This document shows, piece by piece, positions 34,249 to 61,495 of a DNA stretch of 64,000 bases. The position numbers were made by a program, and so were the translations under genes. Within the stretch, counting starts at the first letter, position 1. Each line of letters starts with the position of its first letter. Source of the stretch: Lampris incognitus (taxonomy: Eukaryota; Chordata; Actinopteri; Lampriformes; Lampridae); the NCBI RefSeq assembly GCF_029633865.1, contig NC_079215.1, forward strand, positions 52,613,485 to 52,677,484, given 5' to 3'. The notes beneath the pieces are model-generated. The model was not told the origin of the DNA. It did not search any database and saw only the letters and a list, made by a program, of their open reading frames with translations.

Positions 34249-34377
34249 ATGTCGAGGAGCTCGGAGGACAGTGACGCCAGGGGCGGCGGCTCCGACCGGG
34301 ACTTAAAGATGGCTTCGTCAAACAACACCTCCCCGGAGGGGGGCCAGCCGCCGCTGCAGCAGAACCGCATACGGCAG
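34249..34377 (+). CDS. candidate first coding exon, unrecognised (43 codons)
   Basis: ATG in a CpG-rich stretch, open for 43 codons and ending CGGCAG|gtgggt in phase 0. Residues: MSRSSEDSDARGGGSDRDLK then MASSNNTSPEGGQPPLQQNR IRQ; low-complexity, Ser/Gly/Asp-rich, no domain. I do not recognise it. Its phase matches two other candidate first exons on the same strand (57,814 and 61,358), so it could be the most upstream alternative start of the same gene, or the start of a separate gene. The donor is followed 117 bases later by a very long CT tract. Confidence 0.5.
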
Positions 34378-34493
34378 GTGGGTGACAGTATGTGCGGGGG
34401 CTTGGGGTGCGCCTGTGTGTCGGGTGCGTTGCGGTTTGTCGACTGGCCGGGTCAGCCGTGTAACGACCGGCGGAAATAGATGCGGATGCTGAT

Positions 34494-34620
34494 CTCTCTC
34501 TCTCTCTCTCTCTCTCTCTCTCTCTCTCTCTCTCTCTCTCTCTCTCTCTCTCTCTCTCTCTCTCTCTCTCTCTCTCTCTCTCTCTCTCTCTCTCTCTCTC
34601 TCTCTCTCTCCCTCTCTCTC
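34494..34620. repeat. (CT)n tract, about 125 bp
   Basis: Almost pure CT dinucleotides; a homopurine/homopyrimidine tract able to form triplex DNA. Confidence 0.95.
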
Positions 34621-35698
34621 TCCCGACCCGCTCCCAGAGAGGGGCAGATCGGTAGACGAGGCGTTGTCCCGGTGGCATCTTTAAGTGGCGTCCACAGTCA
34701 CTGATGCAGGAGTTATGATCGACCCCCAATAGGTCGCCGAATTAGCTTTTTTCTATAGAAGGAATAAACGTGTCCTCTGCCGGGGACCGAGGCCGGTTCT
34801 ATATGATGCAGAGCAGCGCGACCCCACAGCTACAGGGGCGATTCTGACAGCTGTCCGCTGGCCACGTTCACGACTGCGATGGGGAAGATCTGCACCTTAG
34901 CTGACTGCAGAGTAGAGCATCCCCGGACCAAGTGGTCTTCGTTGCCTTTCCCTCTGAGGAGCAGCAACGTCTGGTGGGATTTAAGTGGGCAAATGGCCTC
35001 ATGCAGGAGGCCAAATAGCCCAGAATAAACAGGCGATGTTTGTGTTTTGACAAACAAATGCACACTTTGTATGGTGCTCATTAGCAGCTTCCGTTTCACT
35101 GTAAAGCAGCGGTGGGTAATGTATTTATCTGCGTGCGTGCGTGCGCGCGCGCGCGCGCACTTTCGCGTGTCCACTAAGTGCTCTCAAGTCTCGCAAGCCT
35201 CTCTGGGGCTGTGCTGTGTTCACCAGGAAGCCACTCCATCCTTGTCTGCTTCTGAGATTCTGATAAAGTGCCGGCCAGATGTCCTGGTCAACATGGATTT
35301 CTCCTCGCCTCCCCTAGTTCCTTCTCCTCTCCTCTCCTCTCCTCCTTCCTCCATCTTCCTCCTTCAACATATGCACGTAGACAGGGAACCTGGTGCTGCA
35401 TTCACGCGCCAAGGCAGCGTGGTAAACAAGGTGGTCGCAGGTTATAGCGAAAAACCCACTGCGGGAGATGGTTTCAAAGGTGTTTTAGGAGGCTGCAAAG
35501 TTGCTCGCCGCTGTTTTAAGTTTTGGGGAGGCATTGATACCCTCAACCTGCCTCTCCCTTCTCCAAGTCGTCATGCCGAGCGCTCTCATTAACTACACAT
35601 AGAGAGTATATAAGCACACAGAAATGGGACTCCAACTCTAGGCTGGCATATACAACACCCAGCACAATATGTCTACAGAACAGCTTGATAATCATACA
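34621..35698. other. intronic/intergenic, no gene seen
   Basis: Contains a (GC/GT) alternating run (35,133-35,160) and a CTCCT run (35,325-35,350). No exon is supported. Confidence 0.4.
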
Positions 35699-59143: not shown

Positions 59144-59939
59144 CTAAGCGTCGGCTTTGTGTCGATGCAGTTGCCCACCGGGGAGCGGGGTTCGCGCCCC
59201 GGTCTCGATTGGCCACTAAACTGGGAGAAAAATCAGAAATAAATTAAAAAAACAACAACAAATGGAAATGGAGAAGGGGTAGCCACTGAAGCATGCTATG
59301 AGTTGGCTAAGTTGGTTGTTTACTGGCAGTGTAGTGTGTGTGTGTGTGTGTGTGTGTGTGTGTTTGCTCCAGTGGTAAACTGGGACAGAATGCGTTGCAG
59401 AGTATAATCCACTCACCTTCATTACATGAAGAGGTTCATGTCGGTCTACCCAGGACCCCGTACAGATAGCGGGATTACAGCTGGTAGTTAATCGGTCCGA
59501 GCGCCGTATGGGCGGTACGCGGCACAGCCAGGCTGGGGGTGGGGTGGGGGGCGATGGGACGAAAGACTTGCACACACACAAACTGACAATGAGTCCACCA
59601 AAGCCCACCGCCGGATCAATATTGAGTCGGCATGCTGGGGGATACTCGGAGGGGGAGGTCAGCGTCCCCGTCTAGATCCCATCCAGATCTGGTCAATGAG
59701 CGGACCCAAGGCCAGCAGATGAGCAGACTGGGTGACAATCTTGGCACAAGCTAGTGCACATACACACACACAACTGCCTCTGTTGCATGTTGGGAGACCC
59801 TTCCTCTCATGACCTGACTTGAGCTTATACAAGGTGTGGGCCTTTTTAGTCACATTTGACACCTCGGATTTGAGAGCTGGAAGAATTCCAAGTCTAGGTT
59901 TCATCGTTCTGAGAAAACAAATCCATGAGCATGTTAACG
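59144..59939. other. non-coding, no gene seen
   Basis: (GT)n at 59,333-59,362; otherwise unique-looking sequence without splice-bounded open frames. Confidence 0.4.
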
Positions 59940-60308
59940 TCCATCCACCCGTTAGCCAAACCGCTTATCCTGCTCTCAGGGTCGCGGGGGTGCTGGAGCC
60001 TATCCCAGCAGTCACTGGGCGGCAGGCGGGCAGACACCCTGGCCAGGCCACCAGGCCATCACACAGGGCCCACACACACATTCACACCTAGGGACAATTT
60101 AGTACAGCTGATTCACCTGACCTACATGTCTTGGGACTGTGGGGGGGGGGGGGGGGACTGGAGCACCTGGAGGAAACCCACGCAGACACGGGGAGAACAT
60201 GCAAACTCCACACGGAGGACGACCCGGGATGACCCACCAAGGTTGGACTACCCCGGGGCTCGAACCCAGGACCTTCTAGCTGTGAGGCAACTGCGCCACC
60301 GTGCTGCC
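59940..60308 (-). repeat. SINE family A, near full length
   Basis: Reverse copy, ending at the head TGCGCCACCGTGCTGCC. A poly-G expansion is at 60,139-60,156. Confidence 0.8.
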
Positions 60309-61357
60309 AGACATTCCTGATTGGGCAATGGCAGTGAGATGTAGCATATTATCACGTAAATTAAGATTTTTATTAATTTTATTTTCCCTGATCATTGCTG
60401 CCATAGGAATTTGGCAGTCTGTGTTATCTTCCGAACACGGTCACGTCCACAGTCTTTGGTTGGCTCGCAACATATACAGCTTGTGTTCAGGATCCGTGTG
60501 CAGATTGACACCATATACAAGGCGAGACCTTAACCAGGATATCGGCTTGTCCGCCAAATGCTTCAGCCACCTTGGCGGGTATGCTGTTACCTAAACGAGG
60601 TTCCCTCAACGTGTTTTACATACCCCCCGATGACAAACAATGCAACTGCATTAAATGTAACCTGATCTGGGGTCTGTCTGTGTTAAGGCTCATCTGCCGT
60701 CTTTGCCGCCGTGACGCTCGGCATTCCTAGAGAGCACTGCAGGCCACGCGGTCTCCGGGTCTCCCACCCAGACCCAGCTGCCGCACACCGCTCAGCGGGC
60801 GGACGCGGCAACGGGGTGGGAGACCAGCTGGAGAGAGGGTCTGCAGACCCGGTGGGGTAAAAATAGCCAGGGTGGGAGAGGCCTGAGCTGGCAGCGGGAG
60901 CAAAGTGTGTATGGTTGCAGTTGTTATTCTCACGGAGAGAGGGAGAGAGGGCAGGACAGGGCCTTCGGCGGGCTCGACTCACACACCCAGAGAACGCTAC
61001 AGCCACCCCAGGTCGGATTTTGCCGGGGCAAAGGGAGATAAAGAGAAGTAAGGGAAGTGGACGGAGGCGGCGGGGAGGGTTTAACTGGTGGCAGGCAGAG
61101 GGACAACGTGAAAGACGGGCTGAATGTGTGCGTCTGAAAAGCTGATGCGTTGGCTGGACACAGCGTGGACAGGTGGAAAGATGGACTGCTCAGTGTGCAT
61201 GCCTTATGAGAACGGGGGAGCGGTGTAAGGACTCGGCTGGCGGGGTGAGGAAACCTCAACGTCTCTGCTTTGGTGCGTCCCGGGCGTTGATAGGCAACAG
61301 GGAGGGGCCGCATTTTTAGGGTTGTGTCAAAAAACAAACAAAACTTGGTTGTGAACC
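60309..61357. other. upstream region of the 61,358 exon
   Basis: 60,700-61,300 is moderately CpG-rich and purine-rich (GGAGAGAGGGAGAGAGGGCA), plausible promoter/5' UTR. No exon is seen before the ATG at 61,358. Confidence 0.45.
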
Positions 61358-61495
61358 ATGGGTAACGCAGCGATGTGTAAGGCCTGCGGGTCGCATAACG
61401 CTGCAAAGACTTCTGGGAGTGATGTGGATTTAAACCAACAAACCGACTACTGTGGCGCGGCTGCCGATTCTGGATCTGAAGATGATGATGGACTG
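61358..61495 (+). CDS. candidate alternative first exon, MGN-start (46 codons)
   Basis: ATG in a strong context (ACCATGG) with an in-frame TGA two codons upstream. 46 codons end GGACTG|gtaaga, a consensus donor, phase 0. Residues: MGNAAMCKACGSHNAAKTSG then SDVDLNQQTDYCGAAADSGS EDDDGL. Gly2 with nearby Cys7 and Cys10 suggests possible lipid modification, but Met at position 6 is not the small residue N-myristoyltransferase prefers. I recognise no family. Same strand and same phase as the ankyrin-like exon 3.4 kb upstream, so it may be another alternative start of that gene; a separate gene is also possible. A (GA)n tract begins 13 bases after the donor. Confidence 0.5.

Follow-up and report, generated by a model that had tools for sequence, protein, structure and literature searches.

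Candidate alternative first exons before one shared exon 2 of ank2 (ankyrin-B) in the teleost Lampris incognitus

To which gene do three short exons, each opening with an ATG and ending in phase 0 on the + strand, belong, and could all three serve as alternative starts of one protein? The question is raised by a 64,000-nucleotide stretch of the Lampris incognitus genome (the window; contig C6:52,613,485-52,677,484, forward strand; assembly 1.48 Gb) in which such exons, here called A, B and C, begin at 34,249, 57,814 and 61,358, respectively. The window was joined to the next 120 kb of its own contig, giving 184 kb that were examined in continued coordinates, with human ankyrin and PDE5A sequences used for comparison. 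Taken as a whole, the sequence is likely to contain the 5' end of a teleost ank2 gene, with B, C and, somewhat less surely, A as alternative first exons before one shared exon 2.

The shared second exon and the identity of the gene

A preliminary description of this DNA had proposed a multi-promoter ankyrin 5' region in which phase-0 first exons precede a common exon. A downstream search for an SDxNASFLRAAR exon bore this out and produced no refutation, an exon of this form (SDxN.SFLRAAR; SDSNTSFLRAARAGN...) being found at 65,398-65,499, 1.4 kb beyond the window. This common exon 2 is 102 nt long, follows the acceptor cag/TCTGAC and ends at AACCAG/gtaagg. It lies 31.0 kb from exon A, 7.5 kb from exon B and 3.9 kb from exon C, and is followed on the + strand by ankyrin-repeat exons and then by ZU5 exons, the ankyrin repeats falling at C6:52,692,468-52,709,239 among the matches listed. 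Seven repeat exons measured 99, 99, 99, 186, 99, 99 and 198 nt, the third having been given as 111 by a script donor placed 12 nt too far. These seven lengths occur in the same order in Table 2 of the mouse Ank3 study, with one 99-nt exon skipped (PMC4449188).

Exon 2, taken with one preceding residue, is 80% identical to ANK2 and 60% identical to ANK3, and the repeat domain (327 residues from eight joined repeat exons, one repeat exon being omitted) shows identities of 80% to ANK2, 73% to ANK3 and 65% to ANK1. When the ZU5 and following exons were compared with ANK2 as the sole query, eight of ten alignment rows were identical at 65-92%, the remaining two (39% and 49%) being overlapping or intron-spanning alignments. 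Carp LG1 carries cd027 (C4orf27 = HPF1), ank2 and camk2d within ~106 kb (PMC8928983). HPF1 (histone PARylation factor 1) is located directly upstream on the same strand in Lampris, and the teleost hpf1-ank2 linkage is therefore present; camk2d was not found within the 184 kb examined. Because the repeats and ZU5 exons match ANK2 and HPF1 lies upstream as in carp, the gene is identified by these comparisons as ank2 (ankyrin-B). The same genome also holds a second ank2 (C26), an ank3 (C22) and two ank1 copies (C15 and C1), together with an ankyrin copy on C16 that is probably another ank3, its scores being tied between ANK2 and ANK3.

Candidate first exons

The three exons had been described as short, ATG-initiated and ending in phase 0 at good donors on the + strand, and their coordinates, frames and donors were confirmed: 34249-34377 (43 codons, donor GTGGGT), 57814-57939 (42 codons, GTAAAG) and 61358-61495 (46 codons, GTAAGA), with donor scores of 5.77, 3.99 and 5.08 for A, B and C, respectively, in an approximate vertebrate matrix. 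With a start codon and a phase-0 donor in each, all three join exon 2 in frame, and the encoded tails are neutral (0) in A, basic (+9) in B and acidic (-6) in C. The arrangement resembles that of mouse Ank3, in which five alternative first exons lie within ~409 kb of the second exon (Yamankurt et al. 2015, PMC4449188), in that several ATG-bearing phase-0 first exons precede one common 102-nt exon (mouse exon 2b). It differs in that the gene is ank2 and the span is 31 kb. Counterparts of Ank3 exons 1b and 2a were not recognised, and exons 1d and 1e were not searched for. Human ANK2, the same gene with the same acceptor exon, has first exons which we take to begin MMNEDAAQKSD... and MTTMLQ, neither of which was recognised here.

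Exon C (61358..61495, +) encodes an acidic tail of net charge -6 (MGNAAMCKACGSHNAAK...DSGSEDDDGL), opens in the start context ACCATGG and ends at the phase-0 donor CTG/GTAAGA. In the second ank2 copy, whose exon 2 is identical to that of the first copy at 33 of 34 residues, an MGN exon of 47 codons (MGNVAMCKVCGS...) lies 9.0 kb before exon 2 within the 32 kb inspected and likewise ends in phase 0. Its sequence up to the donor reads MGNVAMCKVCGSQKGLRTAGVQSDLDQDALPDYYCAEHFPQQPPLML/GTAAGA, the donor nonamer being identical to that of exon C. By tblastn the two exons share 15 of 27 residues (E 1.6e-7), six of these 15 being encoded by different codons, and alignment of the full exons gives 19 identities in 45 residues, with 10 of the first 12 kept and the second half diverged. 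At the DNA level only a 43-nt block of exon C aligns between the copies, its first base lying 2 nt 5' of the ATG. When 59-65.6 kb was compared by blastn with the upstream region on C26, 15 rows were listed, of which only this block and exon 2 are neither dispersed repeat nor a 16-nt simple-repeat match. The pattern resembles a short N-terminal motif under constraint. As the second ank2 has an MGN exon with the same donor and phase, differing in its length of 47 codons and its diverged second half, exon C is read as a conserved ank2 first exon, MGNxAMCKxCGS, and very likely constitutes an ank2 start. The two ank2 copies presumably stem from the teleost duplication.

Neither an MGN nor a MAHAA exon was found in the 46 kb preceding exon 2 of one ank3 copy or in the corresponding 6.8 kb of one ank1 copy, a farther position being possible in both, and no first exon in the mouse Ank3 table fits exon C by length or end (PMC4449188). 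A description of such an ank2 exon, or of the string MGNAAMCKACG, was not found among the titles and abstract openings listed or in the texts searched, which is weak evidence of absence.

Exon B (57814..57939, +; MAHAAAHLKKAREFEQ...RAERKRQ) ends at the phase-0 donor CAG/GTAAAG and carries an MA[HQ]AA..LKK opening followed by a basic tail (net +9). Its start, MAHAAAHLKK, resembles exon 1c of human ANK3 (E 0.004, composition correction not applied; 0 of 2000 shuffles as good), the likeness residing mostly in the first 10 residues. Coding potential, scored by a measure for which the window's PDE5-like and HPF1 exons served as the training set and stop-free stretches as background, is supportive for this exon (0.5% of background as high). 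The first exon of human ANK1, which we take to start with MAQAAKQLKK, shares the opening and the basic tail, the rest of the tail differing, and the MAHAA..LKK start is therefore not specific to ankyrin-G, as had been supposed. Exon B scores 69 with ANK3 and 62 with ANK1, and ANK1 and ANK3 score 103 with each other. Because the ANK1 start is nearly as close and the ANK1 and ANK3 starts are closer to each other, the exon type appears family-wide, exon B being the apparent ank2 form of the MA[HQ]AA..LKK first exon and the counterpart of Ank3 exon 1c, with 126 nt compared to 114 coding nt in mouse 1c (PMC4449188). We regard exon B with high confidence as a predicted ank2 start.

Exon A (34249..34377, +; MSRSSEDSDARGGGSDRDLKMASSNNTSPEGGQPPLQQNRIRQ; phase-0 donor CAG/GTGGGT) is covered by a CpG island (33751..35500; GC 0.52-0.62 and CpG observed/expected 0.65-1.06 in 500-base windows) and contains an inner ATG at 34,309 in a better start context than that at 34,249. 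When the ANK3 1a peptide was compared with all six frames of the window, the top place was this inner ATG (MASSNNTSPEG), scoring 28 against 26 for the next. Exon A thus appears faintly like ANK3 exon 1a, which in mouse ends AGCAG/gt ahead of a 39-nt exon 2a (PMC4449188). A single search of the fish's own genome returned exon A itself and nothing else. It is probably an ank2 start, the least certain of the three. The earlier suggestion that both outer exons would be undescribed ankyrin starts is uncertain for 34,249, given the weak likeness to Ank3 1a, and has firmer support for 61,358, a counterpart of which occurs in the second ank2.

Each of the three exons is adjoined by a GA/CT array: (TC)65 at 34493..34622, ~117 nt past the exon A donor; (AG)35 at 57737..57805, just 5' of the exon B ATG; and (GA)25 at 61508..61557, 13 nt past the exon C donor. 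The 184 kb contain five such arrays of at least 12 units, two of them away from the exons at 41.9 and 50.9 kb, and arrays fell as close in 31 of 200,000 random placements, an association that was noticed after the fact. Minisatellites are found soon after exons B and C, at 58055-58889 (20-bp unit, 41 copies) and 61945-63262 (51-bp unit, 26 copies).

A series of results weighs against three ank2 first exons at this locus. ATG-open stretches of 35-60 codons with a phase-0 donor of at least 4 number six on the + strand and three on the - strand of the whole 64-kb window, a cut of which the 57,814 donor falls just short. One of the six on the + strand, at 25.1 kb, probably represents HPF1 exon 1. 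The bare pattern of phase-0 short exons does not exceed chance, and other evidence is therefore required. A start-context filter (R at -3, G at +4, donor at least 3, 20-80 codons) leaves only 34,309, inside exon A, 57,814 and 61,358 on the + strand between 19.5 and 64 kb; the same filter passes one row in the 46 kb that precede exon 2 in an ank3 copy and, in the 52 kb upstream of the second ank2 exon 2, two unrelated rows besides the MGN exon, and it provides weak, unspecific evidence. Within the same 52 kb, of which 5.2 kb is N, exons A and B were not found, and no GA/CT array is present near the MGN exon of the second copy. The local score of exon A with ANK3 1a was reached by 7 of 2000 shuffles, borderline after 18 comparisons, and with 1a and 2a combined by 101 of 2000; exon 2a itself, 39 nt in mouse, was not found. 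The coding score of exon A is matched by 3.0% of background, the part from the inner ATG being no better than noncoding sequence, and that of exon C, equalled by 7.7% of background, falls short of significance. With the first 10 residues of exon B held fixed, 46 of 2000 tail shuffles match its score with ANK3 1c and 77 of 2000 that with ANK1 1b. The mammalian ANK2 first exon MMNEDAAQKSD... was also not recognised anywhere in the window.

The weak ANK3 1a likeness and modest coding score of exon A would suit a different explanation, in which only B and C are ank2 starts and 34,249 begins another transcript, perhaps non-coding or small, between HPF1 and ank2; exon A has its own CpG island, 23 kb from exon B, and was found nowhere else in the genome in one search, nor near the second ank2. 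We regard this as unlikely, as the + strand downstream of it showed no further Pfam-bearing host exon up to the window end, the phase 0 and CAG donor of exon A suit the ank2 acceptor, and its inner ATG is the top six-frame place for ANK3 1a, though with the small difference given above. That 61,358 is a chance open reading frame before a chance donor is very improbable. Similar bare patterns do arise by chance and exon C lacks a significant coding score, but the region upstream of the second ank2 offers an independent match (E 1.6e-7) that shares its donor and phase, and the conserved DNA block starts at the start codon. The preliminary description had assigned the region to ankyrin-G (ank3), and exon B does score higher with ANK3 1c than with ANK1 1b (69 and 62). 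This identity is rejected by the downstream exons, in which the repeats are ANK2-like, and the carp HPF1-ank2 linkage and the presence of a clear ank3 copy elsewhere (C22, exon 2 88% identical to ANK3), perhaps with another on C16, leave it next to no probability.

Possible roles of the alternative N-terminal tails

If exons A, B and C are alternative first exons of ank2, each would possess its own promoter and start codon, end in phase 0 and be spliced to exon 2, the start of the ankyrin-repeat domain. What is predicted here from sequence is that each exon is transcribed and joined to exon 2, that the forms are tissue-specific and that membrane attachment is affected. Promoter choice would place a neutral (A), strongly basic (B) or acidic glycine-2/double-cysteine (C) tail before one membrane-binding domain. 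Palmitoylation of ankyrin-B occurs at several cysteines, among them Cys60 (PMC10098127); this residue and Cys70 of ankyrin-G, likewise palmitoylated, are situated between ankyrin repeats 1 and 2 (PMC10098127, PMC4820748). By count, the Cys at the end of exon 2 would be this conserved residue, which lies 31 residues beyond the end of the tail. As its end is near a palmitoylated Cys, the tail would adjoin a membrane-attachment site and so most likely tunes attachment, or partner binding or gating of the repeat solenoid, tissue by tissue. The title of one study reportedly speaks of an ankyrin-G N-terminal gate.

Exon C encodes Gly2-Asn3 in both ank2 copies, with Cys7 and Cys10 present. These residues may invite lipid anchoring, and the CxxCG could equally bind zinc. 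The myristoylation pattern (PROSITE PS00008; Gly2 with a small residue at position 6) is lacking, both copies having Met6 when read by eye, and PMC6175894, which mentions both myristoylation and ANK3, deals with an internal exon rather than a first one. A tentative and rather doubtful extension is that exon C represents an undescribed fish ankyrin-B isoform class, in which MGNxAMCKxCGS would be lipid-modified (Gly2 acyl and/or Cys7/Cys10 palmitoyl) or zinc-binding, promoter choice switching between a basic-tailed and a membrane-anchored, acidic-tailed form.

The MA[HQ]AA type of first exon, found in ANK3 and in ANK1, has an ank2 counterpart, so that its promoter may predate the split of the three ankyrin genes. 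How the highly alike ankyrin-B and ankyrin-G reach different membrane sites is a long-standing question (PMC10098127), and a promoter-selected N-terminus with Gly2 and two extra cysteines, kept in two ank2 copies, would provide a testable handle on ankyrin targeting.

Neighbouring genes and mobile elements

The order on the + strand is PDE5-like exons, HPF1 and then the CpG island with exon A at 34.2 kb. HPF1, the immediate upstream neighbour of ank2, has exons at 25904..30403 (+) and its first exon is probably located at about 25.1-25.2 kb on the same strand; a CpG peak spans 25.25-26.0 kb, and an AATAAA signal follows the exons at 30,540. The PDE5-like exons (3809-19289, +) are 42-81% identical to human PDE5A in most pieces, two weaker pieces showing 27 and 33%, and HNWSHG is found where human PDE5A has HNWRHA. 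For one of these exons the best solved-structure matches are PDE5 chains. We report them as an apparent diverging pde5 copy adjoining hpf1-ank2.

A Pfam scan of stop-separated frames from 34.4 to 64 kb (three frames per strand) yielded only Tc1-type transposase and reverse-transcriptase domains above the cut-off, with some helix-turn-helix, DUF3915, Zip and GIT1_C rows below it. Another host gene between 34 and 64 kb was rejected, the Pfam scans having yielded only mobile-element domains above cut-off. The earlier statement that no other exon occurs in 27 kb is valid as far as Pfam-bearing host exons are concerned, the scan being blind to small or domain-less exons. Neither tRNA genes nor Rfam families were found in the window. 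The Tc1-type transposase forms a single open frame of 350 codons at 40072-41124 (+), with further transposase pieces at ~36.1-37.1 kb and a weak piece at ~56.6 kb. A reverse-transcriptase domain of a retroelement, probably LINE-type, is located at 53381-54142 (+), and an interstitial telomere-like TAGGGT array at 45680-45764.

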